NCBI RefSeq assembly: GCF_041296385.1
Contig: NC_091016.1
Location: 11,195,997 to 11,259,996, forward strand
DNA length: 64,000 nt
Direction of reading: 5' to 3'
Origin: Aphelocoma coerulescens
Lineage: Eukaryota > Chordata > Aves > Passeriformes > Corvidae
Positions 11,857 through 54,142 of this stretch are shown one piece after another (within the stretch, counting starts at the first letter, position 1; each line of letters opens with the position of its first letter). The notes beneath the pieces are model-generated. The model did no database searches, was not told where the DNA came from, and was given only the letters and a program-made list of their open reading frames with translations. Position numbers and translations under genes: made by a program.

Positions 11857-12380
11857 TGTTGCCCACCGACCACAAACACAAACCAACAGAGAGTCAGTTT
11901 ATGCGGTGCTTTATTCAGGGCCCGGGGACCTGGGGACTAGTGTCCCAAATCAGGCTTCCCAAAGGCCTATCGTTTCACTCAGCTCTTTATACAGTTTCAA
12001 ACATTGGCACACATACAAGATTTAATCTTCAAAGTAAAACATACATCACAAGGATTAACAATTGATAATCATACCCTAAGCCATATCTCTTCATGGTTGT
12101 CTAGTCTTAGATAATGCTCAACGAGCTCCTACCACTGAAATCCCCCTTGCATGCAACATATATCAACCCAGAACAATTTACTTTTAGACAGGTTCACCAT
12201 GCCCAGCTAATTCACTAACAGGTTCACCATGCCCAGCTAATTCACTATTCCTAACCTCCCCACCCAGTACATTCCATTCCTGTTTCCCCAGAGAACTATT
12301 TCTACACCTGAGGCCTTACAGCCTAGCAGAGCCTTAGCCTTACTACTTCTAAAATCCAATATCCTATCCTTTTTGTAACA
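11857..12380 (-). repeat. ERV-A 3' LTR
   Basis: 524 bp. On the minus strand it begins TGTTACAAAAAGG and ends GGGCAACA. TATA-like TATAAAG lies at 11,985-11,991 (read in reverse) and an AATAAA further downstream in the R region. U3 has a perfect 30-bp tandem duplication (12,188-12,247). By eye it is identical to the copy at 20,655-21,178. Confidence 0.95.
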
Positions 12381-12393
12381 AGTCCCCCCTTTT
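12381..12393 (-). other. ERV-A polypurine tract
   Basis: On the minus strand AAAAGGGGGGACT lies directly upstream of the 3' LTR's TGTTACA start. This is the position and composition of the primer for plus-strand DNA synthesis. Confidence 0.85.
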
Positions 12394-12520
12394 GAGCATC
12401 CTTCGAGCTTCTTCTGGGTTCGCAAGGATGCTCAACAATTCATGTCGCTGTTTCGCGATAAGCAGGAGGTGGAACGGCTGGTTCTGCCAGGACTTCTCTT
12501 CGCATTATCGCCTTCATTAT

Positions 12521-15016
12521 TCACCGAGTATGTTGACCTTCCTTGACAATCATTCCTAAAAGACACTTATATACTATTAAGGCAACTAAAATGATTATAA
12601 CAATCATGATTCCATATTGTACAATTGAGGATATCCATCCGGACATCCGAATTCCCAGGGAGCTGAACAGTTCTCCAACCCAATTGTGTTCTGCCTCTTT
12701 CTGAATATCATTCACCTTTCCTTCAATCTGTTCTAATTGACTTATATCCTTTTCTACTTCTTGTGTAACATTCGGGATGTGAATGCAGCAATGGTCGTCC
12801 CTACCATGCAGATATCCACATACGCCATGCTCCTTCAACAATATCATATCTAGAGCCATCCGATTTTGAATTGTCATTCTAGACGTAGCTTGTAACTGCA
12901 GATTTAAGTCCTTGAATCCCTTCTTGGTCACAGCCGCTAACCTTTCTGTTTGTCCCAACAATTTGTACAACATTTCCCTGTTTCGATATGATGATATTTG
13001 TGCAAAGAGAGATTCTAATACCCACCCAAATTTAATTCCTGAAGAAGGTTCATGCCAATCTTCCCCTTCTTCTAACCCTATGTCCCCAATTTCCTGACTT
13101 ATATCTCGCTTATGTCTTATTTGTATTTCTGAGGCCGTCAATTTTGTCGATTTCCAGAAAGGACAAAGAGTTGGAACTCCTAAAGTAATCTGTGTAGTTG
13201 GACCATCTACCGGCATATGAGTGGTCCAATGTCCATGACCCATTACCCAAACTAAATTTCCTGGAGCTCGGATTGATGTAGTTTTACAGTTTAACTCTCC
13301 TTCTGTATTTTTGTCTTTTATCGTGTGGTTATATCCCCTACATTCACAGCCAAATCTCAAAAGTACCTTTACCGGCAGTAGACTCACAGACTCACTTGGG
13401 CTGTCACAAGTGAAGACCTCAGTGCAATTCCAATCGGTCATCCTAGGTGCATCTTTCCTCCAACTATCCTGTCCTTGATAGGTCTTTGAGTAAGTTTGAT
13501 TTTTCCGTCCCTTCCAATGAATACACCATTGAACTGTTCCTATATAACTATAAGTTTCCAACAAACTAGGTCCCCAGATTGTCTGCCATTGTTCCATGGT
13601 AGTTGTGTTTGTAACATTCTGGCATATTATTTCAAAATATTGTTCAGTTGCCGGGACTTCTCGTGTTTGCCTCTCATCGTATTCACACCATCCTACTCCA
13701 TGGAATCTTCTGATTTTGGTAAATACAGCATTCGGAAGCTTGTAACAATCTGCTCGGGTCCTCGGGGTTTTCCTCCTTATCACATTTGTCCGATTAACCA
13801 ATTTAGTTCGGCTCCTAATCTCCTGGGTACAACTTAAGGTGACTGTTCGATTAGATGCAGGCATGTCTGGAGCTGGTATAATTCCCCATGGTATAGGATC
13901 TCCTGCCGCATGGGGCAAAGGCAGACATGCAGTGATTGCTGATACATTTTGTGTTTGCCCAAAATCCCTAATTAAACCCACAATCAGATTCTCTGGTTTG
14001 GTTTGGATTTCATCCTCTGGTACCTGCCGAGTCACCCTTGTTCTTTCAACATAAACACTAATCATCCCGGTTGCCCACCAATCATCTCGAGCAACCCAAC
14101 ACCAGTATTGTCCATTATCTTGCTGTTCCAGGACCTCTTTAATTACTAACACTATTTCTTGGGGTTTTCTTCTAATTTGATATTTCCCTTGAGCCACCAA
14201 GCTTTGTCCTCCAAACCACCATTCATACTCAGTGTAGCTTTCGGTTGGTATCCTACATCTTAAAACCAAATTCTGCCCTTCCTTTGCGTTATATATTTCC
14301 TGTTCAGGCTTGATTCCTCGCTCCTGTTGTAATACCACTTCTACTTTCCTGACCCCATAACCTCCACTATCACCACAAATGATAACACAAAGGTATTTAC
14401 CCTCCGATCTACCAATCTCTGAGTTCGTTATATTCAACCATCCTCTGCTCTCATTTCCCAGCGTCCACCAACTTGTCCCTTGTACCTGTGGATTCCACAT
14501 TTCCTGTGTCGTGTTCCATTTCCACCATTTCATTCTAATCTGTTTCTGACACCCTGTCTTAAATCTATGAGTACATTTTATTCTGAGAGGAGGTCCGTCC
14601 CACATATCTACTTTCCCATTTGGGAGATTCACCTGGACCCTATTTTCCGATTCTGTTTGGGAGATATTTAAAATGTCAAGATTTACGAATCCATAATCAT
14701 AACTCCCTTTTATCCAAACCACACAAGCGTATTTTCCTGTTCTGGCCTTTGTTATATTGGATATCTGCAGGGTAATCCTACCTTTTTGCTGCTTCTCATC
14801 CCAGACCGTTTCTACTCCTTTATCTGGAATTTGATCCTTGGTGATCCATTTCCATTGTGCCCTGACTCTGTCCCATCCAGCTCCCTGATCATCGACAAAC
14901 AAACATGTAAGATTTACATTTGAATTCTCCGGTACCCACACCCTTGATTCAGGTATTGTGATTTTAACAAAGGTTTCAACAATTATTATTTTACTCAAGA
15001 GTAACAACAACAGCAT
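12521..15016 (-). CDS. env: ERV-A Env precursor with three N-terminal Ig-like modules
   Basis: An 831-residue envelope precursor. I start it at the ATG overlapping the pol stop (TAATG), which is followed at once by a hydrophobic signal peptide (six Leu, then SKIII); the open frame extends 86 codons further upstream. Three consecutive Ig-like modules follow, about residues 18-116, 127-230 and 239-326, each with a first Cys, a core Trp and a terminal GKYAC, GKYLC or GQYWC motif. A Cys- and N-glycosylation-rich SU region runs to the cleavage site RHKR (634-637). The TM subunit has a heptad-like region, a C-x9-CC motif (Cys733...Cys743-744), a membrane span (about 801-821) and a short tail. The segment after RHKR is acidic rather than a hydrophobic fusion peptide. 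Expected to be expressed from spliced RNA. Env identity is firm; the Ig assignment rests on motif reading. Confidence 0.9.
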   Translation of the reverse strand: MLLLLLLSKIIIVETFVKITIPESRVWVPENSNVNLTCLFVDDQGAGWDRVRAQWKWITKDQIPDKGVETVWDEKQQKGRITLQISNITKARTGKYACVVWIKGSYDYGFVNLDILNISQTESENRVQVNLPNGKVDMWDGPPLRIKCTHRFKTGCQKQIRMKWWKWNTTQEMWNPQVQGTSWWTLGNESRGWLNITNSEIGRSEGKYLCVIICGDSGGYGVRKVEVVLQQERGIKPEQEIYNAKEGQNLVLRCRIPTESYTEYEWWFGGQSLVAQGKYQIRRKPQEIVLVIKEVLEQQDNGQYWCWVARDDWWATGMISVYVERTRVTRQVPEDEIQTKPENLIVGLIRDFGQTQNVSAITACLPLPHAAGDPIPWGIIPAPDMPASNRTVTLSCTQEIRSRTKLVNRTNVIRRKTPRTRADCYKLPNAVFTKIRRFHGVGWCEYDERQTREVPATEQYFEIICQNVTNTTTMEQWQTIWGPSLLETYSYIGTVQWCIHWKGRKNQTYSKTYQGQDSWRKDAPRMTDWNCTEVFTCDSPSESVSLLPVKVLLRFGCECRGYNHTIKDKNTEGELNCKTTSIRAPGNLVWVMGHGHWTTHMPVDGPTTQITLGVPTLCPFWKSTKLTASEIQIRHKRDISQEIGDIGLEEGEDWHEPSSGIKFGWVLESLFAQISSYRNREMLYKLLGQTERLAAVTKKGFKDLNLQLQATSRMTIQNRMALDMILLKEHGVCGYLHGRDDHCCIHIPNVTQEVEKDISQLEQIEGKVNDIQKEAEHNWVGELFSSLGIRMSGWISSIVQYGIMIVIIILVALIVYKCLLGMIVKEGQHTR

Positions 15017-18000
15017 TAATTTTTGGCTTTGAACACCATTCTGGTGGGAGATAGGGGTTCCACCGACCATCGGGAGGGGACCTTTTTGACCCGTGTGTAA
15101 TGGATCCAGCTGTTGATCCCGTCGACCTTGACGGCGGTGTAAGTTGTCATTATCACTTGATGGGGGCCGTCCCATGTTTCCTTCAGAGGCTCCACCGACC
15201 AGTTCTTCACGTAAACTTGATCTCCTGGGTGAATATCGTGAGCAGGAGTGTCCAGAGGTAACGGTCGATTCCACTCCAGCGTGGATCTCAGTGCTGCAAG
15301 GGTCTTATTTAAAGACAGAACATAATTTACAATCATCTGATCCCCAATTACATGTGGGTCCCCTTGATAGGTTACAGCATGATATGGTTTGCCGTACAAA
15401 ATTTCATACGGACTTACCCCTATCCTTTCTCGTGGTTTAATCTTAATCCTCAGAAGGGCTAGAGGCAATGCTTGGGGCCACTGTATTTTAGCTTCTTGAC
15501 AAATCTTTTTAATTTGATTTTTCAGAGTTTGATTCATTCGTTCCACCTGACCACTAGATTGAGGTCTCCAGGGGGTGTGTAAGTGCCACTGAATTCTCAG
15601 AATAGTAGAAACTTCCTGCACGATCCCTGCAGTAAAATGTGGTCCTCTATCTGATGATATTCCTAAAGGAACCCCAAACCTTGGAATAATTTCCTTGAGA
15701 AGGGTTTTCACTACCTCCTTGGCCTGGTTCGTCCTGCAAGGGAAAGCTTCGGGCCATCCCGAAAAGGTGCACACATAAACTAGTAAGTACTTGTATGCCT
15801 GAGATTTTGGTAACTCGGAAAAATCTATTTGCCAATAATTCCCTGGTTGTGGCCCTACACGTATTTTCCCCATTTGGACCTGTCTTCTAACCAACGGGTT
15901 ATTTTTAATGCAAATCGGGCAGGTGGCATTTATTCTTTTGGCCATTGTTATCATCGAATTAGAGAGTACTATTTTCTTTAGATATTCTACCAATGCTTCT
16001 GCACCACAGTGGAGTTTGTTATGTTCAGTTTCCATGACTACTTTCATCAATCCTACTGGCAGTATAACTTGTCCGACCGGTGTTACATACCATCCTACAA
16101 CATTCCTTCTTGCTCCAGTGAATTGTGCCAACCGTTCATCCTCCGGAGAGTAGCACGGTTTCTCTTCTAAATAAGGTGCAGCGGGATTTTCTCTTGTCGG
16201 TATCAGAGCCATTTGAGTCCAGACCAATCTGGCTGCCCTTTTCGCAGCTTCATCTGCCATCCGATTCCCCTGAAATTCTTTCCCGGAGTCTGCTTGATGA
16301 CCTCGGACATGCATGATCGCTACTGCCGTAGGTAAGTGTACAGCTTCCAACAACTGGATTATTACTTCCTTATGTTTGATCTGTGAGCCTTGAGAGGTCA
16401 AAAGTCCTCTTTCTTTCCACAAAGCCCCATGGATGTGAACCACACCAAATGCATACTTTGAATCAGTCCAAATGTTCACTTTCCTGTCTCTACTAAGGAC
16501 CAATGCCCTTACCAATGCCCATACTTCTGCTTTTTGCGCTGAAGTTTCCGGAGGCAGTGCTTTAGCTTCCACTATTTCTTGGAGTGTCACCACAGCATAC
16601 CCTGCATACCTGGTTCCATGCTCCATAAAACTGGATCCGTCCGTGAACAGCTCCACATCGGGATCTGCCATCGGGACATCTTTCAGATCTTCACGGCTGG
16701 CATACACTTGTTCGATCACCTCCACGCAGTCATGCTCCAGTTCTCCTTCCTCTTGGGTGGACCTGAGGAATTCTGCTGGATTGAGATGGTTGGTTATTTT
16801 TAATTCAACATCATCTTGTTCCCGCAACTGAGCCTGGTACTGCATCATTCTGCTGGAGGAGAGCCAATGCCCCCCTTTTTGTTCCAAGACGGCTATGACC
16901 ATGTGAGGTACATATACCGTGATGTGTTTTCCCAGTGTCAGTTTCCGTGCCTCCTGAATTAGGATTACCGTAGCAGCCACTGCTCGCAAGCACCCTGGCC
17001 ACCCTCCGCTCACCATGTCCAGCTGTTTCGAGAAGTACCCCACGGGCCTCTTCCATGACCCCAATCGCTGTGTGAGTACTCCTAAAGCTAATCTCTGCCT
17101 TTCATGCACATACAATTGAAAGTCTTTTGTCAGGTCTGGCAGACCCAGGGCGGGGGCCTCTTTGAGTGCTTGCTTTAATTCCTGGAAGGCCTTGTGCTGT
17201 GTCTTACCCCACTTGAATTCGGGTTCCTTGATTGTTTCGTACAGTGGTTTGGCCATGAGTCCGAAATTCGGAATCCACAGGCGACACCAGCCGACCATTC
17301 CTAGGAAAGATCTTAATTCCTGATTATTTCGTGGTACAGGGATTGCACAGATGGCTTGTATGCGATTCACCCCTATTCTCCTGACTCCTTGTGATATTTC
17401 ACATCCCAGATAAATTACCTTCTGTCGCACCAGCTGCGCTTTTTCCTTGGATACTCGGTATCCTGCCTGACCCAACATGTTTAATAGTTCAATTGTTAAC
17501 TTTGAGCACAGTCCCCGCTCCTCTGTTCCCAGGAGTATGTCATCCACATATTGTAAAACAACATAAGAAAAAGGAGACTCTTTTACCTTGGTAGTTTTCC
17601 ATTCCTCTAACTCCTTTGCTAGCTGGTTTCCAAAAATGGTGGGTGAACACTTAAATCCTTGTGGCAACCTGGTCCATGTTAACTGTCGCTTGCGGCGAGT
17701 GTCTGGGCTTTCCCATTCAAAGGCGAAAATGTATCGACTCTCGGGGGCCAGTGGGATGCAGAAGAAGGCATCTTTTAGATCAATCACTGTGAACCACTGA
17801 AAATTCTCAGAAATCGATGTTAACAATGTATATGGATTGGCCACCACCGGGTGTATATCTTTGGCAATTGCATTTACTGCTCTCAGGTCCTGCACCAACC
17901 TGTATTTCCCATTTGGTTTCCTTACCGGAAAGATTGGAGTATTAAATTCCGATTCGCATTCTTGTAAAATCCCTAATGCTATAAATTGCGTGATCATTGG

Positions 18001-18537
18001 GGCAATTCCTTTCCTGGCTTCCAAACTAATAGGATACTGTCGAACTCTTACCGGGTGTGCCCCTTCCTTTAGTTCAATTTTTACAGGAACGGCTACCCTG
18101 GATCTGCCCGGGGTCCCTGTTTCCCATACCCACGGGACTACTGCCTGCTCTATTTCCTGGGGTATCTCCTCTGTCTTTGTCTCTTTAATCACAAAAAGTT
18201 TTCCCAGATTCCCCTCCGGGATTTCTAGTTTAGCACGCCCTTTCTCGAATATGATTTTTGCATCCAGTGCCGATAATAAATCTCGCCCCAACAAGCATTC
18301 CGGGCTGCTTGGCATATATAAAAACTGGTGATCCAATTCTTTGTTTTCAAATTTGATTTCCAGTGGCCGCAAGAATGACCTCTCCACCACCTCCCCCGAC
18401 ACCCCTACTACTTTCACAACTGAATCACTTAACGGTCCTATTTGTTCATTGATTGCAGAGAAAGTGGCTCCTGTATCTACCCTAAATTCCCTGGGCCCCC
18501 CGTCGACTTCCAGGACCACTTTTAGATCTTTATCTAG
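15016..18537 (-). CDS. pol: ERV-A Pol (protease, RT, RNase H, integrase)
   Basis: This frame continues directly from gag after one UGA, giving about 1,173 residues. Counting from the GTG at 18,519: protease VDTGAT (14-19) and LLGRDLL; RT with LPQGF (285-289) and the catalytic YVDD (324-327); RNase H with FTDGS (Asp627), Glu665 and WTDSK (Asp686); integrase zinc finger His833, His837, Cys867, Cys870; catalytic Asp899, Asp957 and Glu993 (D,D35E); then a C-terminal SH3-like, GPH-containing region typical of gamma-type integrases. All catalytic residues I looked for are present and there are no frameshifts. The 3' end overlaps the start of env by one base. Pol is expected only as Gag-Pol, since no strong ATG begins the frame. 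Confidence 0.95.
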   Translation of the reverse strand, partial: LDKDLKVVLEVDGGPREFRVDTGATFSAINEQIGPLSDSVVKVVGVSGEVVERSFLRPLEIKFENKELDHQFLYMPSSPECLLGRDLLSALDAKIIFEKGRAKLEIPEGNLGKLFVIKETKTEEIPQEIEQAVVPWVWETGTPGRSRVAVPVKIELKEGAHPVRVRQYPISLEARKGIAPMITQFIALGILQECESEFNTPIFPVRKPNGKYRLVQDLRAVNAIAKDIHPVVANPYTLLTSISENFQWFTVIDLKDAFFCIPLAPESRYIFAFEWESPDTRRKRQLTWTRLPQGFKCSPTIFGNQLAKELEEWKTTKVKESPFSYVVLQYVDDILLGTEERGLCSKLTIELLNMLGQAGYRVSKEKAQLVRQKVIYLGCEISQGVRRIGVNRIQAICAIPVPRNNQELRSFLGMVGWCRLWIPNFGLMAKPLYETIKEPEFKWGKTQHKAFQELKQALKEAPALGLPDLTKDFQLYVHERQRLALGVLTQRLGSWKRPVGYFSKQLDMVSGGWPGCLRAVAATVILIQEARKLTLGKHITVYVPHMVIAVLEQKGGHWLSSSRMMQYQAQLREQDDVELKITNHLNPAEFLRSTQEEGELEHDCVEVIEQVYASREDLKDVPMADPDVELFTDGSSFMEHGTRYAGYAVVTLQEIVEAKALPPETSAQKAEVWALVRALVLSRDRKVNIWTDSKYAFGVVHIHGALWKERGLLTSQGSQIKHKEVIIQLLEAVHLPTAVAIMHVRGHQADSGKEFQGNRMADEAAKRAARLVWTQMALIPTRENPAAPYLEEKPCYSPEDERLAQFTGARRNVVGWYVTPVGQVILPVGLMKVVMETEHNKLHCGAEALVEYLKKIVLSNSMITMAKRINATCPICIKNNPLVRRQVQMGKIRVGPQPGNYWQIDFSELPKSQAYKYLLVYVCTFSGWPEAFPCRTNQAKEVVKTLLKEIIPRFGVPLGISSDRGPHFTAGIVQEVSTILRIQWHLHTPWRPQSSGQVERMNQTLKNQIKKICQEAKIQWPQALPLALLRIKIKPRERIGVSPYEILYGKPYHAVTYQGDPHVIGDQMIVNYVLSLNKTLAALRSTLEWNRPLPLDTPAHDIHPGDQVYVKNWSVEPLKETWDGPHQVIMTTYTAVKVDGINSWIHYTRVKKVPSRWSVEPLSPTRMVFKAKN

Positions 18538-18540
18538 TCA
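18538..18540 (-). promoter_or_regulatory. In-frame UGA between gag and pol (putative readthrough site)
   Basis: The gag frame ends in TGA and the very next codon, CTA, begins open pol sequence in the same frame (18,540 to 18,519 is 21 nt). UGA followed by CUA is a known favourable context for ribosomal readthrough in eukaryotes. Gammaretroviruses join Gag and Pol by readthrough of a stop in this place, more commonly UAG (family knowledge). I have not folded the downstream RNA for a pseudoknot. Confidence 0.8.
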
Positions 18541-20331
18541 GCTCTGATTTTGATAGTTCCCCATCATAAAGGCTTGAGCGACACCTTGTGGTCCTGGCGC
18601 GAAAGGGTTTAACCCATCATTCGCGTTCATTCCCTGATTTATGGGATTCCTTCCTGGAAAGTTACTCATCGGTGTCCCCATCCCCAAATTGAGGGGGCAC
18701 TCATTCTTCCAATGACCTTCGGCGAAGCATCGGGCGCACTGATTGGGCCCCAATTTACCTCTACCCCTACGCATCATCTGGTTCCCTACATTCTGATTCA
18801 CAAAACCTCCGAAACCACCTCTTCCCATGCCCCCGTTTCCTCTGCCTCGTCCCCTCCCCCGGCCTCTCACATTCATCTGACTTTCCTGTTGTAACACTGC
18901 CAACATGCTTGCTTGTTGCTTCTTCACTGCCTCTTTCTCTCTATTATTATACACTTTCCACGCTACTTCAAGCATTTTCTCCAAGTCCCGAGTGTCATTC
19001 CCTTCTAGCTTTTGTAGCTTCCTCCTAATATCCTCCTGTGACTGTCCCATAAATATCAAGGCCATTTGTAGTTTTCCTGCCTCCGATTCCACGTCTAAGT
19101 CTGTATACCTTCGTGCTATTTCTTTCAGCCTCTCCAAGAACGCAGATGGTGACTCTGCCTTATCCTGTCTTACCGCATACAACTTAGACCAATTTAAAGT
19201 CTTTGGGATTCCCCTCTGAATTCCTTCCACCAACAGCTCCTGATAAACCTGCAACCTATGATACTCTTCTGCCAAATTAGGGTTCCATTCTGGATCTTCC
19301 CTTGGTACTATTTCATTCACATTCCCTATTCCTTGTAGTGCTGGTGCTTGCAACTGAATCATGTCCCTTGCCCGATTAGACATAGCTTTAAATACCATCT
19401 CCTTTTCCGTAGAATCCATTATCGAGTCTAGCAACACCTGTAGGTCATTCCAGTCCGGATTCTGTGTCTTTATTACCATTTTCACCACCCGAGCCACCTT
19501 TTCAGGATTTTCTCTATAAGCTCCTGCAGATTGCTTCCAAATTATTAAATCATTGGGGGAAAACGGAACTTTCACTCTGACCCGATCCCCTGTTGGTCCA
19601 ACTGCTTCTCGCAATGGGGCCATTAGATGTGCTCGAGAAGCGCTTTTTCCCCTGTCCAGTCGCCCTCTGCGAGTACGCTGGGAGAGCGGAGTTCGGGATT
19701 GTTCCCTCCCTCTCTCCCTGGGTTCGGGAGTTCGGGATCGTTCCCTCTCTCCTTCCTCGGAGTCAGATTCCTCTTCCGAAGAATCTGAGTCCGGGAGGGG
19801 GAGGTTGATTGGGTCGGATGGTGATACCAACAAAGACACATCCTCCTCAGGCTCAGAGAACCGTACCCTTCGCTCTTTACAACCCGCGCATTCTTCTGGT
19901 TCCGTTTCTAACACCATCATTCCACATTTCCTCTGCCAATCCTTTTTTCCTATTAGCTGATAGAACAAATCCAAATAGGGTATCTCATCCCACTTCTCAT
20001 TTTCCCGTAGGTACCGCATCATGGGGGTTATAATTTCAGAATTAATAGTGCCATTCCACGGCCACTGCATCCCCCCAGTTTCATATTCAGGCCATACCTT
20101 ATTACAATAATCAATCAATTCTCTTTTCCGCAGCTCCCGTCCCAATTTACCCTCCTTCCAATGACTTAGCAAACACCCGAGGGGAGATTCCTCCGGAATA
20201 TCCTTATCTGAACTTGACAAAGCCCGAAACACCCGCAACGGCATCATTCCAGAGGTATGCAACCACACAATAACATACACACACCTAGTAACACACAGAC
20301 TAATACCAATACTAATTACCACAATATCCAA
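18538..20331 (-). CDS. gag: ERV-A Gag polyprotein
   Basis: 597 residues. From the first ATG, a hydrophobic N-terminal stretch (about 3-25) precedes a matrix-like region beginning near residue 45. An acidic then Arg/Ser-rich, proline-containing linker with a repeated SRTP motif spans about 182-226. Capsid-like sequence follows, with a major-homology-type segment at about 389-416. The nucleocapsid has an RG-repeat tract (about 489-509) and one CCHC knuckle (Cys532, Cys535, His540, Cys545). Gag builds the virion core and packages RNA. No Met-Gly myristoylation start is seen at the first ATG, and I see no PPxY or P(S/T)AP late motif. Met29 or Met30 are alternative starts that would drop the hydrophobic leader. 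Confidence 0.92.
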   Translation of the reverse strand: MDIVVISIGISLCVTRCVYVIVWLHTSGMMPLRVFRALSSSDKDIPEESPLGCLLSHWKEGKLGRELRKRELIDYCNKVWPEYETGGMQWPWNGTINSEIITPMMRYLRENEKWDEIPYLDLFYQLIGKKDWQRKCGMMVLETEPEECAGCKERRVRFSEPEEDVSLLVSPSDPINLPLPDSDSSEEESDSEEGERERSRTPEPRERGREQSRTPLSQRTRRGRLDRGKSASRAHLMAPLREAVGPTGDRVRVKVPFSPNDLIIWKQSAGAYRENPEKVARVVKMVIKTQNPDWNDLQVLLDSIMDSTEKEMVFKAMSNRARDMIQLQAPALQGIGNVNEIVPREDPEWNPNLAEEYHRLQVYQELLVEGIQRGIPKTLNWSKLYAVRQDKAESPSAFLERLKEIARRYTDLDVESEAGKLQMALIFMGQSQEDIRRKLQKLEGNDTRDLEKMLEVAWKVYNNREKEAVKKQQASMLAVLQQESQMNVRGRGRGRGRGNGGMGRGGFGGFVNQNVGNQMMRRGRGKLGPNQCARCFAEGHWKNECPLNLGMGTPMSNFPGRNPINQGMNANDGLNPFAPGPQGVAQAFMMGNYQNQS

Positions 20332-20517
20332 TTCCCTCCTTGCTTATCTCGTCGCCGCGAGAAGCAAGGGCTGGCTCTGCAAAGCTTTCGCTCTGTCTGA
20401 CGGCCAGCGCCTAGGCTTATAATCCAAACCAATGCCCCAACCCTGCGAGTAGAGACTCGTCTTACCGGGCAGGCTACCACCACCGGTTTAAAAGGAATAA
20501 AGCACCTTGTGGGCTTA

Positions 20518-20519
20518 CC
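20518..20519 (-). promoter_or_regulatory. Candidate major splice donor
   Basis: On the minus strand GTGAG|GTAAGC matches the donor consensus well and lies in the leader between the primer site and gag, where the donor for subgenomic env RNA is normally found. A weaker alternative, CCCG|GTAAGA, occurs about 55 nt downstream. I could not fix the matching env acceptor. Confidence 0.6.
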
Positions 20520-20630
20520 TCACGGTTGTCCGTCGGACGCGGGGTCGGGCACGGGCTGATGTCTCCCCAGAAATCACCTGGTGCCGGCACGGAGCAGATC
20601 ACCCCGCGAACCGCCCCTACGACCCCCAGA

Positions 20631-20648
20631 GTCCCATCTGGGTCGCCA
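20631..20648 (-). other. ERV-A primer binding site (tRNA-Arg type)
   Basis: On the minus strand TGGCGACCCAGATGGGAC starts six bases after the LTR end. It begins TGG as required for pairing with a tRNA CCA tail, and its complement reads like the 3' end of a vertebrate tRNA-Arg (CCG anticodon group, from memory). The element would be an ERV-R type by primer naming. Confidence 0.75.
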
Positions 20649-20654
20649 GAAAAC

Positions 20655-21178
20655 TGTTGCCCACCGACCACAAACACAAACCAACAGAGAGTCAGTTTAT
20701 GCGGTGCTTTATTCAGGGCCCGGGGACCTGGGGACTAGTGTCCCAAATCAGGCTTCCCAAAGGCCTATCGTTTCACTCAGCTCTTTATACAGTTTCAAAC
20801 ATTGGCACACATACAAGATTTAATCTTCAAAGTAAAACATACATCACAAGGATTAACAATTGATAATCATACCCTAAGCCATATCTCTTCATGGTTGTCT
20901 AGTCTTAGATAATGCTCAACGAGCTCCTACCACTGAAATCCCCCTTGCATGCAACATATATCAACCCAGAACAATTTACTTTTAGACAGGTTCACCATGC
21001 CCAGCTAATTCACTAACAGGTTCACCATGCCCAGCTAATTCACTATTCCTAACCTCCCCACCCAGTACATTCCATTCCTGTTTCCCCAGAGAACTATTTC
21101 TACACCTGAGGCCTTACAGCCTAGCAGAGCCTTAGCCTTACTACTTCTAAAATCCAATATCCTATCCTTTTTGTAACA
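20655..21178 (-). repeat. ERV-A 5' LTR
   Basis: 524 bp, the promoter LTR of this minus-strand provirus. TATAAAG lies at 20,783-20,789 and AATAAA at 20,708-20,713 (both read in reverse). A perfect 30-bp direct duplication lies in U3 (20,986-21,045), the position of enhancer repeats in many retroviruses. Outside it, CTGG (21,179-21,182) matches the left flank. Confidence 0.95.
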
Positions 21179-48655: not shown

Positions 48656-50269
48656 TGTTGGGGAGGATGAAAGTTTGGTAAGAAAGTTTCACAGCTATGT
48701 AGGATTGGCAGAAAGATCTCTGAATGTAGAAACTTAGAATGAGATAGAAATGAAAGCAAGGTTTGATATAGAGTAAAAGATGTTTTGCTGAAACACTGAG
48801 CACTGAATAACTGAGAAGGCAAAGGTTGGAGATGAGTTGGAAGGAGATTTTTATGATTAGGGCAAAGGTATGTGACCACAAAGACATGTTTTTTACCAAG
48901 TGAATGAGTCTCAAGAAGAGCATAAGTAAATAAAAAGCATGTTTTTACCAAATAGAGAGATATTGCAGGCAAACAAGAAATGTTGATGTAGCAAGAAGAA
49001 GAGAGGTCTGAGAATTTTCCATTGTAAGCTTAAATTGTAATATATTTACTCTTGTGATTGGATAATAATGACTATAATACGGTGTCTCAGTTTTGAAAGA
49101 CAGGTGTCTGCTAAGGAAGGCAGAAGCCTCCCTTGAAGTGGCAGATATAACCCCTTTCCCTCTGAGTTATTGTAATTTTGAAATCAAGGGCCTTTAGGCA
49201 AAGATGTGGGAAATAGGAATAACAGTTCTTTACTATATATATAGGTATAGATATATAGCCAGTCAAACGAAACAACAACAACTATGACAGTAACAGCAAA
49301 CACAAACCCAGTCCCAGCCTTCTCGGCTGTCAGGCTATTTCCCCTCGGGTGCAGTTCCGCTTGCAGCCAGCAGGGATCGCTGGCAGCTCCCGGTGAGCAG
49401 GGCAGGTGCGATGGTTCCCCCGCCGCTGCAGGGGGTGCTCTGGAGCGAGCTCGGGGAGCATGTGGCACTGGTGCCCTGGGATCCCGGGGAAGGATGGAAC
49501 AAAGGCTTCACAAACCGCTGGGCAGCTGGTCCCGGACTCTTGGAAACAGCAGTCTGGAACAGCAGGCTGGAGCGGCAGGCACAAGACACAAATCCTGGGT
49601 GGCAGACGAGATGTATCCAAAAGGGGAACCCCCTGGAGGTCCAGGCAGGCAGGGTGAGCACGTCTACAACGCAGCGAAGGCTCGAAGCAGCAGTGGGGCA
49701 GGGTGGCCACAGCCCAGCCTCCAGCAGGGCAGGGAAAAGCAGCCCGGCTTTGTTTCAAGCAGAAAGAAAGACGGCCAAAAAAACCAGGAACCAGCAACTC
49801 CCCCCTCTGCAGCCTCTCTCTCTGGAGCCAAGAGCGAACTGAACTCACACTCAGATGAAAACAAAAAGCCTGACGAGGCCCTTTTGTCTTCTCTTAAGTA
49901 TGGCCATTTATCTCCTAGCAACATGCATATGGGAAAAAATTCCTTTAACAGGAAAAAAAACTAGGACTAAACTAAAACCCCAACATATGGTAATGGTAGT
50001 AGTTATGATAGGCTATAGGCAAATGTAAAGGTATTGTGTATGGTGTTTATGGGTTGTTATGTATTAAGATACTCTGCAAAGAAAAGTATATAATGCTTTG
50101 TAACTTGAACAGAAGGGGGCTTCAGGTATGCCTACCAGCTGTAGCTGACAGCTGTAGGGCTGGCTCTGGATACCCACCCCCTGAAATGCTGTAACTTCAC
50201 CTATGCAATAAACAGCTTTTTCGAGAGCCGCCTGAAGTCCAGACATCCTTTGTAGACACTTATCCTATA
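48656..50269 (+). repeat. ERV-C 5' LTR, interrupted by another LTR
   Basis: About 706 bp of LTR after removing the nested element at 49,083-49,985. It begins TGTTGGGGAGG and ends TATCCTATA. It differs from the 3' LTR by several small indels, so this provirus is clearly older than ERV-A. TATA-like AAGTATATAATGC and AATAAACAGC are present near the 3' part. Confidence 0.88.
49078..49990. mobile_element. Solo LTR (49,083-49,985) nested in the ERV-C 5' LTR
   Basis: A 903-bp block from TGTCTCAGTTTTG to AACCCCAACA, flanked by TACGG and TATGG (5 bp, one mismatch). The interrupted LTR resumes immediately as in the 3' copy. It is a close relative of 63,054-63,941. The GC-rich centre produces several overlapping open frames (up to 226 codons) that are not genes. 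Orientation is undecided; the minus reading starts TGTTGGGGTTTTAG. Confidence 0.88.
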
Positions 50270-50272
50270 AAT

Positions 50273-50290
50273 TGGCGCCCAATGTTTTAG
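50273..50290 (+). other. ERV-C primer binding site (tRNA-Lys type)
   Basis: TGGCGCCCAATGTTTTAG begins three bases after the 5' LTR. TGGCGCCCAA is the start of the primer site for tRNA-Lys1,2, as used by many class II retroviruses (family knowledge). The 3' half has drifted. Confidence 0.7.
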
Positions 50291-50545
50291 AGGGGCAAAA
50301 AGGGATTTTTCCCCATATAGGAGACTTCTTGGCGAACGTGTGATCGCTGAAACGAAGTGACCTGAGTAGCTGCAAACGAGACGCTTCAAACGAAAGTATG
50401 TGCAGCTGCTAACGAGAGGAGATGCCTGAAACGAAGGCGTGTGGAGGCCGGACAGACACTCCTACGGGTCAGCACCTGGACCGGACCTCAATGATAGACA
50501 CCTGCTGTGACAGGTCAGCAAAGGTGAATACCAAGTAATCGAGTC

Positions 50546-51206
50546 ATGGGTCAACATGCGTCTGCCCAACAGAAGGATGTTTATCAGCACCTAAACCTCT
50601 AATTAAGTCCAGCCCAAGTAAATTGCCAAAAAAAGACCTGAAAATCTCATTGCATGGACTGTGACTCATGTCCCAGTCGCTAACTCTAAGGCAGTCTACA
50701 CCAGAGATTTTTGGGACTCGGAGTCAAATTATTTAATGCCATATCTCGCTGGGACAAGGGAGCCACAAAACTAGTACCTGCTTGTACAGTGTTACCGGAA
50801 ATATTTGCCATGCTTCCCCCACCGCCATGCAGCTCTGCCCCACCTCCTTGCCCGCCGCCTCCTCGCCCACCGTCGCCGAGTTCTGCCACCCTGCAGCCAA
50901 GGTGCCAGTCCCCCGCAGCCCTACCGCCTCCTTGCCTGCTGCCACTGAGATTGGCCACGCTGCTCCCGAGTTCTGCCGTGCCATTGCCCCCCCGCTGGGC
51001 CCCATCTCCACACCACCACTGCCCCCGCCAGGCTTCTCTGCCACCGTGCAGCTGTATCCCTCCGCTGCCCAGCAGTTTCCCTCCATGCAGCTCAACCCCG
51101 CCTCACAAGCCGCAAACAGGGGGGGAACAGAGGGGAATGATGCAGCTCCAGTAGCAGGGGAGACAGGGAGCTACTCTGCCGGAGCCAATCCTTTGAATCT
51201 AACATA
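50546..51206 (+). pseudogene. gag: ERV-C gag remnant
   Basis: A Met-Gly start (MGQHASAQQKDVYQHLNL) at about 50,546 is typical of a myristoylated matrix but ends after 18 codons. Further on, Pro/Ala-rich sequence (about 50,800-51,110) reads in several frames like a gag linker. Capsid and nucleocapsid are not recognisable, so the gene is deleted and frame-broken. Confidence 0.6.
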
Positions 51207-51548
51207 AGGAAACCCTGAAAAACAGCCAGATTTGTTTGCAATGAGCCCCAGAGTCTCGCCAGCGAGTGGCGGGGATCTTCCAACCCGGAAAGAGAAAACA
51301 AGTTCCAGGGGTTTGTCAGCGCTACTTTCTGAATCAAAAAATCCCCCAAAATGCTCAGATTATTCTCAATTAACAGATTGGCATGAAATAAGATGCCAGA
51401 TCTGCAAAGATGAAAGTCTTAGTCTATTAGCTATGCCTGTGATAGCTAGCCAACAGCCTGGCAGTCCTAAAATGTGGGCTCCCATCCCCACTTAGGAAAT
51501 TAAAGAACTGAGAAGGGCTGTAAGATATAGTGATATTTGCTTACCGTA

Positions 51549-51783
51549 TTTTAAAAAATGCTAAAAAGTACCCTAAAAGGAACACATCAAACTTTAAAAT
51601 GCATTTTAGATCAACAGAAAGGGGGAGAAGCCCAGGCTACACCTCAAAGAAGGTTAAATAAAGCCTTGTATGTTTATAATTTCTTGAACAGCTCTGCAGA
51701 AGAGCCTGACCCCCCCATTTACAGACATTTCTTGTACAACAAAAAAGCAAAATTTAAAGAACATGCTTGCTATGCTTGCTAAC
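51549..51783 (+). pseudogene. pol: ERV-C integrase C-terminal remnant
   Basis: The frame contains TLKCILDQQKGG and TPQRRLNKALYVYNFLN, typical of the end of the integrase catalytic core in class II retroviruses. Protease, RT and most of integrase are absent: the sequence passes from the gag linker to this fragment in a few hundred bases. It adjoins env as in an intact provirus. Confidence 0.75.
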
Positions 51784-52065
51784 CCATGACGAACCCCAGT
51801 TTTAATTAAGAATTTAGAATCAGGAAAAATAGAAGGACCATATGATCTTACAATATGGGGGAAGGGGTTTGCATGTGTCTCTACAGGTGAAGGATTCAAG
51901 TGGATTCCGGCAAAGAACATGAAGCTGTACCACGCATCAAAGCTGTTTGACAGTTCCACTTCAGCCAATGACCCCGTGAGTGGAAGCTGAGAAGCAGGCA
52001 CCCAAACGTGAACTACGCAGAATCACTGAGAGAAGACTGTCTGCCAGAAACGGCTCAAGAAAAGA

Positions 52066-53513
52066 ATGGAGTTTTATTATTATTTGTGCAGATGCATGTT
52101 GCTTTTATCCTTCTGTTTTTGTTTTTGCAGTGAAGCTTTACCTGTAAATCAACCAAAGACAAATGTTTGGGTTGTTTTAGCCAAGTCCGCAGGCTCCGAC
52201 ACCATATGTTTATCCAATATGAGCCCTGACAAACGTTTCTCAACTTGTTTAGTTGGAGTGCCTTTCCCAGAAAGTTTTGGTAATGATACTTTTGATAAAT
52301 ATTGGCCATATGATGATGATCACATTTCTCCAACTCCCAACCCGAGACACCAAACTTACACTGCTAATTTCAAAGTTGATAAATCTGACCTTCAAGAATT
52401 AGAAATTTTAGACTCATTAACTATGGACACTTGTTATGTGTTTCATTTTGTAGGAAAAAATGGCCCTCATCTGAACATCACTCCTTATCACCCAGTTTAT
52501 AGTAATATGACCTCCTGGTGTAATCAAATTAAGCTTCTCACATATGATGAACCTCACACTGATCACTTTAACAAGCTTCCTATTCGATTTCCTAAAGGAA
52601 TTTGGCTCATCTGTGGAGACAGAGCTTGGCAAGGTATTCCCTCAAAAACAGATAGTGGTCCTTCTGCCCTGGGACAGTACAATAATTACTCCCAGTGTCA
52701 AAAAAGCAATCAAAGGAATTTGGCTCATCTGTGGAGACAGAGCTTGGCAAGGTATTCCCTCAAAAACAGATAGTGGTCCTTCTGCCCTGGGACAGTACAA
52801 TAATTACTCCCAGTGTCAAAAAAGCAATCAAAAAGAAAAACAGAAAAATAAGATCTTCCCGAGGACATCACTATGAGGGCAATTGTGATAGTGATTTTCA
52901 CCCTTGGAACTCTGGAAAATCAATTGTTACAAGCATTTTTTTGCCTCAGCTAAGTTCTTCAATTGCATTGAACCAATTAAATAAATCAGGATGCTGGCTC
53001 AGTAAGGAAGTAAATGCCACTTCTTCTATGATCAGTGACTTGCTGACAGATGAAGAAGCTGTCAAACATGCTGCTTTATATAACAGAGCTGCCCTTGATT
53101 ATCTTTTACTAGCACATGGGCATGGCTGTGAAGATTTTGAAAGATTATGTTGTATGAACTTACCTGATCATTCTGCTTCTATTCATAAGCATTTGCAAAA
53201 CTCGAGAGATTTAACTAACCAAATTACAACAGATGAACCATCTTGGCTAGACAGTTTGTTTGATGGTTGGAGCTTTGCACCTTGGCTGAAGGAACTTTGT
53301 AAAATAGGCTTTATTATTTTAATAGTGATAATTGTGGTTATAGTAGTAGTACCCTGTGTACTTCAATGTGTGCAGAAAATAACGACTAAGACAATTTCTA
53401 GTGTTTTAATAGTTCAACAGAAAGGGGGAGATGTTGGGGAGAATAAAAGTTTGGTAAGAAAGTTTCACAGCTATGTAGGATTGGCAGAAAGATCTCTGAA
53501 TGTAGAAACTTAG
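52066..53513 (+). pseudogene. env: ERV-C env, broken by a 118-bp tandem duplication
   Basis: The SU frame (52,066-52,773) starts with a hydrophobic signal region (MLLLSFCFCFC) and has several Cys and N-glycosylation sites. An exact or near-exact 118-bp tandem duplication (52,594-52,711 and 52,712-52,829) shifts the frame by one base, so the downstream frame (52,695-53,513) carries the rest: a polybasic KKKNRKIR segment near the expected cleavage point, a C-x6-CC motif (CEDFERLCC), and a membrane span rich in Ile/Val (about 53,304-53,360). The frame runs past the polypurine tract into the 3' LTR. The TM style is gamma/alpha-type rather than the usual betaretroviral one. Confidence 0.85.
52594..52829 (+). 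repeat. 118-bp tandem duplication inside env
   Basis: AAAGGAATTTGGCTCATCTG begins at 52,594 and again at 52,712, and the following text is repeated through AAGCAATCAA. The period of 118 bp is not a multiple of three, which explains the frame break. The copies look identical, so the event is recent relative to the provirus. Confidence 0.95.
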
Positions 53514-54142
53514 AATGAGATAGAAATGAAAGCAAGGTTTGATACAGAGTAAAAGATGTTTTGCTGAAACACTGAATAACTGAGCACTGAATAACTGAGA
53601 AGGCAAAGGTTGGAGATGAGTTGGAAGGAGATTTTTATGATTAGGGCAAAGGTATGTGACCACAAACAAAGACACGAGTCTCAAGTGAATGAGTCTCAAG
53701 AAGAGCATAAGTAAATAAAAAGCATGTTTTTACCAAATAGAGAGATATTGCAGGCAAACAAGAAATGTTGATGTAGCAAGAAGAAGAGAGGTCTGAGAAT
53801 TTTCCATTGTAAGCTTAAATTGTAACTTACTCTTGTGATTGGATAATAATGACTATAATATGGTAATGGTAGTAGTTATGATAGGCTACAGGCAAATGTA
53901 AAGGTATTGTGTATGGTGTTTATGGGTTGTTATGTATTGAGATACTCAGCAAAGAAAAGTATATAATACTTTGTAACTTGAACAGAAGGGGGCTTCAGGT
54001 ATACCTACAAGCTGTAGCTGACAGCTGTAGGGCTGGCTCTGGATACCCACCCCCTGGACTACTGTAACTTCACCTATGCAATAAACAGCTTTTTCAAGAG
54101 CCGCCTGAACTCCAGACATCCTTCATAGACACTTCTCCTATA
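53432..54142 (+). repeat. ERV-C 3' LTR
   Basis: 711 bp starting TGTTGGGGAGA directly after the polypurine tract AAAGGGGGAGA (53,421-53,431) and ending CTCCTATA. It is the uninterrupted version used to define the nested LTR in the 5' copy. Confidence 0.9.

Follow-up and report, generated by a model that had tools for sequence, protein, structure and literature searches.

Retroviral envelope proteins (Envs) are usually seen as two-part entry machines. A 64,000-nucleotide stretch of contig NC_091016.1 from the corvid Aphelocoma coerulescens (the window) contains an endogenous retrovirus (ERV) whose Env appears to have a third part. The env open reading frame (ORF; 12521..15016, on the minus strand like all features of this provirus) specifies 831 amino acids from the ATG at 15016 and contains no internal stops. 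Its sequence suggests a head made of three immunoglobulin (Ig) domains, the first of which (Ig1) is B7-like, a surface subunit (SU) with a receptor cassette of its own and a fusion-type transmembrane subunit (TM), the head being an immune or adhesion module that was passed to avipoxviruses; we judge this three-part reading to be about evenly poised between right and wrong. Host furin-like proteases would cut the Env at RVTR (RxxR in its relatives) as well as at RHKR, and the cut head, whether set free or loosely retained on the spike, would engage immune or adhesion receptors, either as a B7-like ligand or as a decoy. SU residues 381-465 would choose the entry receptor, and an avipoxvirus ancestor would have taken the head from the retroviral lineage to use it as a secreted protein. 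A narrower version is offered tentatively and with somewhat less confidence: one precursor would give rise to both a fusion spike and a released three-Ig checkpoint mimic, cut at its own furin-type site, and the module would then have jumped to avipoxviruses as a stand-alone secreted gene. A lineage whose Env has a conserved, B7-like Ig head would be the first one known to us in which a retroviral Env also contains a module of immune-ligand type.

Composition and conservation of the Env head

Behind a signal-like hydrophobic segment, recognized from its sequence appearance (residues 1-17, 14966..15016), residues 18-324 (14045..14965) carry the strand motifs NVNLTC...GKYAC, LRIKC...GKYLC and LVLRC...GQYWC. 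The original prediction, made from the letters of the DNA alone, had described three Ig-marked segments following a signal peptide, and these were present as written; the span given for them, 13990-14970, was about right, but the block itself ends near 14045. The prediction had also named a profile search against Ig families as a check, and Ig_3/ig and I-set were matched: in a Pfam search with the whole Env, Ig_3 covered residues 18-100 (4.9e-13), ig covered 28-105 (9.6e-12) and I-set covered 243-308 (3.2e-10). With the segments cut apart, segment 1 matched ig (8.3e-8) and segment 3 matched I-set (3.3e-8), both over the curated cut-offs. Ig_3 was present in all 22 members of alignment A2 at E 0.01, and NCBIfam gave no useful match. 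The proposed Ig character was thus upheld by Pfam for Ig1 (V-like; residues 18-117, 14666..14965, core Cys 38/98) and Ig3 (I-set type; residues 227-324, 14045..14338, core Cys 254/306), the latter also matching I-set proteins of the PDB such as titin (1.1e-43), whereas the middle domain, Ig2 (divergent V-like; residues 118-226, 14339..14665), kept its Cys-Trp-Cys core and scored weakly. The Cys and Trp columns of Ig2 are invariant in 10 sequences, including the window Env and a poxvirus protein described below. Four of its cysteines are invariant in these sequences (the core pair 148/210 and a second pair 156/214), suggesting an extra disulfide. The Ig2 profile aligned with that of Ig1 in hhalign (E 3.8e-6, probability 87%) and had weak PDB matches to PD-L2 (0.0085), the IL-18 receptor accessory protein (0.027) and BTLA (0.028-0.28). 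The domain profiles were built from 11 of 20 (Ig1), 10 of 13 (Ig2) and 9 of 11 (Ig3) rows.

The Ig1 profile matched 389 PDB sequences at E 0.01. Among the best 60 of these 389, in a database that is uneven and over-represents some proteins, the top match was CD276 (3.2e-25, in two stretches; 2.6e-12 for a two-domain construct), followed by the fly Dpr-interacting protein alpha (1.6e-14), PD-L2 (4.6e-12), carcinoembryonic antigen (1.6e-11) and PD-L1 (1.5e-9). Ig1 thus resembles the B7/butyrophilin ligands CD276, PD-L1 and PD-L2 and is called 'B7-like' here, with no claim of membership in the B7 family. B7 ligands have V-C pairs; such a pair was not evident in the Env head, which differs from these ligands in having a divergent V-like domain in second and an I-set domain in third position and in its place inside a viral Env. 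The receptor-binding domain (RBD) of murine leukemia virus (MLV) is an Ig-like beta-sandwich, but any likeness to the head would be one of fold and not of sequence kinship.

Three other explanations were rejected. The Pfam Ig matches speak against an ordinary SU misread as Ig, as does a control Env from the same genome, L001, which had no Ig match at E 0.1 and matched TLV_coat over residues 90-560 at 5e-118. TLV_coat matches of the Ig-headed Env fell in the TM alone (1.5e-4, just under the curated cut-off), and alignment of the whole region to an ordinary gammaretroviral SU, the outcome that would have spoken against the prediction, was absent. For the window Env, a gene-model artefact is incompatible with the continuous ORF and with 54 scored genomic copies whose match begins at residue 1 or 3 and extends to 831. 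Recent tandem duplication of one domain is excluded by the distance between the domain profiles and by the single domain order kept in three-Ig relatives.

A protein search with the Env returned 18 homologues, all of which have an Ig head or what is left of a clipped one, including that of a mousebird (P0017); the 15 with a species name are all from birds. A search with SU and TM found 37 proteins, including those of kakapo (P0026), cuckoo, pigeon, kiwi, falcon and eagle, several of which do not extend far enough for a head to be seen. Heads with three Ig domains were present in P0002-P0006, P0016, P0017 and P0019 (part of Ig1 is missing in the database entries of P0005, P0016, P0017 and P0019), and the head of P0003, an Aphelocoma coerulescens protein, is 98% identical to that of the window Env. 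The remaining relatives, whose sequences are public gene models or derive from assemblies, have two, one or remnant Ig domains and may represent real deletions or splicing or gene-model artefacts. Other ERV Envs were therefore found to share the modules, as the prediction had considered, but no host gene was found to do so in a word-based search of 216 candidates. Its proposal that a host Ig fragment was captured and duplicated fared in part: capture of a host Ig superfamily (IgSF) sequence at some time is likely because Ig1 resembles the B7 family of host immune ligands, but recent capture followed by duplication is unsupported because the domains are only distantly alike and Envs of a mousebird and of passerines have the block too. 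One further Aphelocoma coerulescens protein, P0044, predicted as 'endomucin-like isoform X2', begins with the Env leader and part of Ig1 and continues with other sequence that includes a membrane segment; it is possibly an ERV-host chimeric transcript or a gene-model artefact.

At least 54 copies of the Env (that of the window included) were scored in the A. coerulescens genome; they are 97-100% identical, and 46 of the 54 lack internal stops. The best 30 of the 54 were fetched, and ratios of nonsynonymous to synonymous substitution (dN/dS) were computed for 29 of them, with L025 left out as being out of register. The ratio was 0.21 for the head (Ig1 0.24, Ig2 0.17, Ig3 0.25), 0.09 for TM, 0.30 for the C-terminal half of SU and 0.80 for SU residues 381-465, the 5-95% ranges of these values resampling copies that are not independent. 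All eight Ig cysteines are kept in 29/29 copies. The Ig head is under purifying selection. Synonymous divergence was higher in Ig2 (0.057) than in the SU C-terminal half (0.012), which hints at mosaic copies.

Basic site, candidate SU cassette and fusion subunit

Head and SU meet at RVTR (residues 327-330, 14027..14038), a putative furin-type site that is kept in 29/29 copies and at which cleavage by a furin-like protease is inferred. Its occurrence was counted in 23 Envs, namely the 18 homologues, P0025, P0026, P0039 and P0041 picked from the SU/TM search, and the window Env. Within the 32 residues before ENL, the start of the SU core, a strict RxxR was present in 20/23 Envs. In control windows of equal length from these proteins, strict RxxR occurred on average in 11% of those in SU and 5% of those in the head. 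The looser [RK]xxR, counted without a control, was present in 22/23.

The SU starts with a conserved stretch, ENLIVGLIRDFG...CLPLPHAAGDPIPWG (residues 342-380, 13877..13993), which shows no nonsynonymous divergence (dN 0) in the 29 copies. Among five three-Ig Envs its mean identity is 84%, compared with 43-49% for the Ig domains, 23% for residues 381-465 (13622..13876), 61% for the C-terminal half of SU (residues 466-637, 13106..13621, ending in RHKR at 634-637) and 75% for the TM ectodomain. Residues 381-465 were also exchanged in two pairs of Envs: P0007 and P0009 share 87% of the head and 94% of the core and only 26% of the variable segment, and the window Env and P0002 share 85% of the core and 22% of the variable segment, that of the window being closer to those of Zosterops, P0007 and Acridotheres (38-40%). 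This comparison dropped P0003, P0022 and P0026 from the 22 relatives, as their boundary motif is missing, and neighbours are given for seven. The pattern makes residues 381-465 a candidate for an exchangeable receptor cassette in SU, next to a constrained head; it is this segment and not the head that behaves as a receptor cassette, because it is hypervariable and was exchanged in two pairs while the head is better conserved. Residues 326-629 alone matched no Pfam family at E 1, and profile A6 had its best PDB stretches from position 203 onwards, which is TM and not SU. No CXXC was found in the SU of the window Env or in the part of SU present in the 23 Envs, several of which are truncated. 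As a positive control, CWLC was found in L001, L002 and L004, three ordinary Envs from this genome. A CXXC in SU is also absent in alpharetroviruses and filoviruses.

The TM (12524..13105) consists of a stretch resembling the immunosuppressive domain (ISD), LQATSRMTIQNRMALDMILLKEHGVC, a CX9CC motif and a membrane anchor. CX9CC is the spacing in all 14 of the 23 Envs in which the motif was found, the window Env among them; the other nine are truncated or have lost the first Cys, as in P0010. The TM profile matched filovirus GP2, MLV p15 and S71 Env in the PDB, and by these matches the TM is a gamma-type or filovirus-like fusion subunit. At its end (12521) the window Env is 27 amino acids shorter than 19 of the 20 copies whose tail was read, with L021 ending at the same place; the longer tails of other copies hold a PPPAY motif. 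The protein thus resembles gamma-type Envs such as those of MLV and avian leukosis virus (ALV) and the syncytins (PMC9967133) in its SU/TM order, the basic site between the two subunits, the ISD-like stretch followed by a three-cysteine motif and the TM profile. It differs from them in its three Ig domains and a second basic site before SU, in the missing SU CXXC and in having CX9CC and not the CX6CC that accompanies CWLC in L001, L002 and L004.

Avipox counterpart and possible role of the head

Searching proteins with the head only returned four, namely Shearwaterpox SWPV1-183 (P0042), two ERV-derived fragments and an 'endomucin-like' model with an ERV head fragment. SWPV1-183 (332 amino acids) is 42% identical over 325 residues that cover the signal segment and the whole head (E 2.7e-79). 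It begins with a signal-like segment and stops at the end of Ig3, just before the position of the basic site; the same three-Ig block is thus free-standing, without SU or TM. Its identity to the Pipra ERV head is 50%, and in head trees it grouped with that sequence with support of 88/91 (14 rows) and 94/91 (10 rows, with P0003, P0019, P0025 and P0041 left out as near-duplicates or long rows), neither of them starred. Constraining five ERV heads to a clade without SWPV1-183 was rejected in the approximately unbiased (AU) test (p-AU 0.0027), as was a clade of four (0.0032), and a clade of three (window, P0002 and Pipra) was not (0.083); the groups were named after the first tree had been seen, and the tree holds one pox sequence. 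In these trees SWPV1-183 nests inside the retroviral heads. In published tables it is paired with CNPV081 of canarypox at 54%, CNPV081 in turn is paired with SWPV2-076 at 97% (PMC5390406), and SWPV2-076 with albatrosspox ALPV-085 at 98.8% (PMC8151833); the kinship of the latter three rests on these tables, in which all four are named just 'Ig-like domain protein'. A search of IMG/VR with P0042 or the Ig2 profile found no avipox or other relatives. In the gene order of the table, SWPV1-183 follows a photolyase gene, and VETFS and NTPase flank CNPV081 and SWPV2-076 (PMC5390406); because SWPV1-183 and CNPV081 occupy different places, two captures or a relocation may have occurred.

Precedents for single aspects of this arrangement exist. 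CrocERV31, as described in PMC4299795, has a three-Ig host-type protein, a captured nectin3, at the env position; one consensus is ~76% identical to the alligator gene, and two alligator species are involved. There nectin3 replaces env; in the A. coerulescens provirus the Ig block is joined to SU and TM within one Env, and the matches of the head search include no host gene close to it. Retroviral superantigen genes described in herpesviruses (PMC4667437) resemble the avipox case in that an immunity-acting retroviral gene moved to a large DNA virus, but gene, viruses and hosts are others. Neither, as described, has an Ig head on an Env. Zebrafish Env38 was dismissed as prior art, its 'Ig-like domain' mentions concerning CD4 in the 12 of 18 places covered. 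In text searches of the open PubMed Central literature, which leaves most subscription papers and all preprints outside its scope, no description was found of an Ig-headed retroviral Env or of a link of CNPV081 or SWPV1-183 to a retrovirus.

An immune-modulating or adhesion role of the head, exerted after or without cleavage, would explain the data better than a plain RBD and is favoured because the head is conserved, can be separated from the fusion protein and occurs by itself in an avipoxvirus. The competing idea that the head is a receptor-binding or attachment domain, which binds an IgSF or other surface protein and stays part of SU, is possible but rather unlikely. It would fit the N-terminal position and moderate variability of the head, and contact between an Env and an IgSF protein has a precedent in Tvc, the receptor of ALV-C, an Ig-fold protein that is, going by the title of the report, related to butyrophilins. 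However, a separate hypervariable SU segment already acts like a receptor cassette, the basic site parts head from SU in 22/23 Envs, some relatives have retained SU and TM with one Ig domain or a remnant (part of these perhaps being gene-model artefacts) and the pox protein consists of a head with no SU attached. The Ig-based receptor-binding head of the original prediction is accordingly retained as an Env lineage with IgSF domains, but its binding role is weakened by the hypervariable residues 381-465, the purifying selection on the head and the basic site; between an effect on receptor choice and the antagonism of a host Ig receptor, which it had also raised, the evidence favours the latter. 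We regard as improbable a role played mainly inside infected cells, in which the head, as a mimic of a host B7/butyrophilin protein or of the receptor used by the virus itself, would mask or down-regulate a receptor (a block to superinfection) and would not be a secreted signal. The B7-like profile of Ig1, the butyrophilin-related Tvc as a known avian retrovirus receptor and the at least 54 near-identical copies scored in one genome are consistent with it, but a poxvirus enters cells differently, and transfer to one suits an immune role better than receptor masking. Very improbable is a passive passenger or spacer from a host transcript with no specific partner: fewer Ig domains in some relatives and the nectin3 mRNA picked up by crocodilian ERVs would be in line with it, but the head dN/dS of 0.21, the eight cysteines kept in every copy, the conservation of the block across bird ERVs and its presence in an avipoxvirus are not. 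The least credit is given to the poxvirus as donor and the retrovirus as recipient. Avipoxviruses hold many Ig-like genes (PMC5390406) and are described as capturing host genes (PMC12058148), and the single pox sequence, the unstarred placement with Pipra and the third, smaller set in the AU test limit the rejection of a pox donor. Nevertheless, SWPV1-183 falls among the ERV heads, its placement outside was rejected for two sets, and more divergent ERV heads exist (P0017, P0026 and P0041).

Several points weigh against the three-part Env with its transferable immune module. Ig2 alone had no Pfam match at E 1 and is weak as an Ig domain by sequence. The likeness of Ig1 to B7 proteins is by profile only; the fly protein ranks second, ahead of PD-L2, and carcinoembryonic antigen ranks ahead of PD-L1. 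The word-based search among 216 candidates yielded no host donor gene for the head. RVTR is a minimal furin motif and one of six [RK]xxR matches in the window Env (RVTR and RHKR included). The strict RxxR is absent in P0009, P0010 and P0013, the last of which lacks [RK]xxR too, and the set of 23 Envs includes near-duplicates. The linker around RVTR is poorly conserved (32% identity in the five three-Ig Envs), and its 17 residues show two amino-acid-changing and zero silent variable codons in the 29 copies. The variable SU segment tracks the core in the pairs Pipra-Manacus (68%) and Prinia-Oenanthe (73%), where no exchange is seen, and the head could aid attachment. Should the three-part reading hold, the three-Ig block common to retrovirus and avipoxvirus may be a portable module of viral immune mimicry, and the avipox gene would point to a rare case in which a DNA virus received such a module from a retrovirus. 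A natural test bed exists in young copies whose three-Ig heads are intact, in relatives that have between one and three Ig domains and in a pox version that lacks the fusion part.

Provirus and other retroviral elements

The provirus extends from long terminal repeat (LTR) to LTR over 11857..21178 and is flanked on both sides by the 4-bp repeat CCAG. The 5' LTR (20655..21178) and the 3' LTR (11857..12380) are 524 bp long, end in TG...CA and are 100% identical over the 524 bp; because there are zero differences between them, the insertion is young. Between them lie gag (18538..20331; Gag_p30 at 3.8e-33 in Pfam, with a listed TTG start that is possibly not the true one), pro-pol (15016..18519; protease, reverse transcriptase, RNase H and integrase) and env, which confirms the element as retroviral. 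The gag ORF ends (18538) with the stop TGA followed by CTA, in the same frame as pol. TGA-CTA is a stop context known for readthrough, and because of this context and the shared frame, Gag-Pol production by stop readthrough is suggested. Given its MLV-type integrase C-domain, its Gag p30 and a pol that continues the gag frame beyond the stop, the element is by its sequence features a class I (gammaretrovirus-like) avian ERV. An in-frame ATG at 15175, upstream of that at 15016, may be the real env start, as the MGR... leader is common to relatives. The leader between the two (15016-15175) comprises 53 residues, overlaps pol and has the MG(R/W)... start in 12 of 18 relatives; the Env may therefore have an unusually long basic leader ahead of its signal segment.

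A second, shorter ERV was observed in the window at 49985-54142, with 285-nt direct repeats that are 95% alike; ORFs inside it (52066-53513) have the look of an alpharetrovirus-type Env, with LLLAHGHGCEDFERLCC as CX6CC. The same genome also holds many ordinary gammaretrovirus-type Envs (L001-L008 among them), with 78 scored TLV_coat matches, many of them in open frames of 600-730 residues, and three of the four ordinary Env loci that were read have both CWLC and CX6CC.

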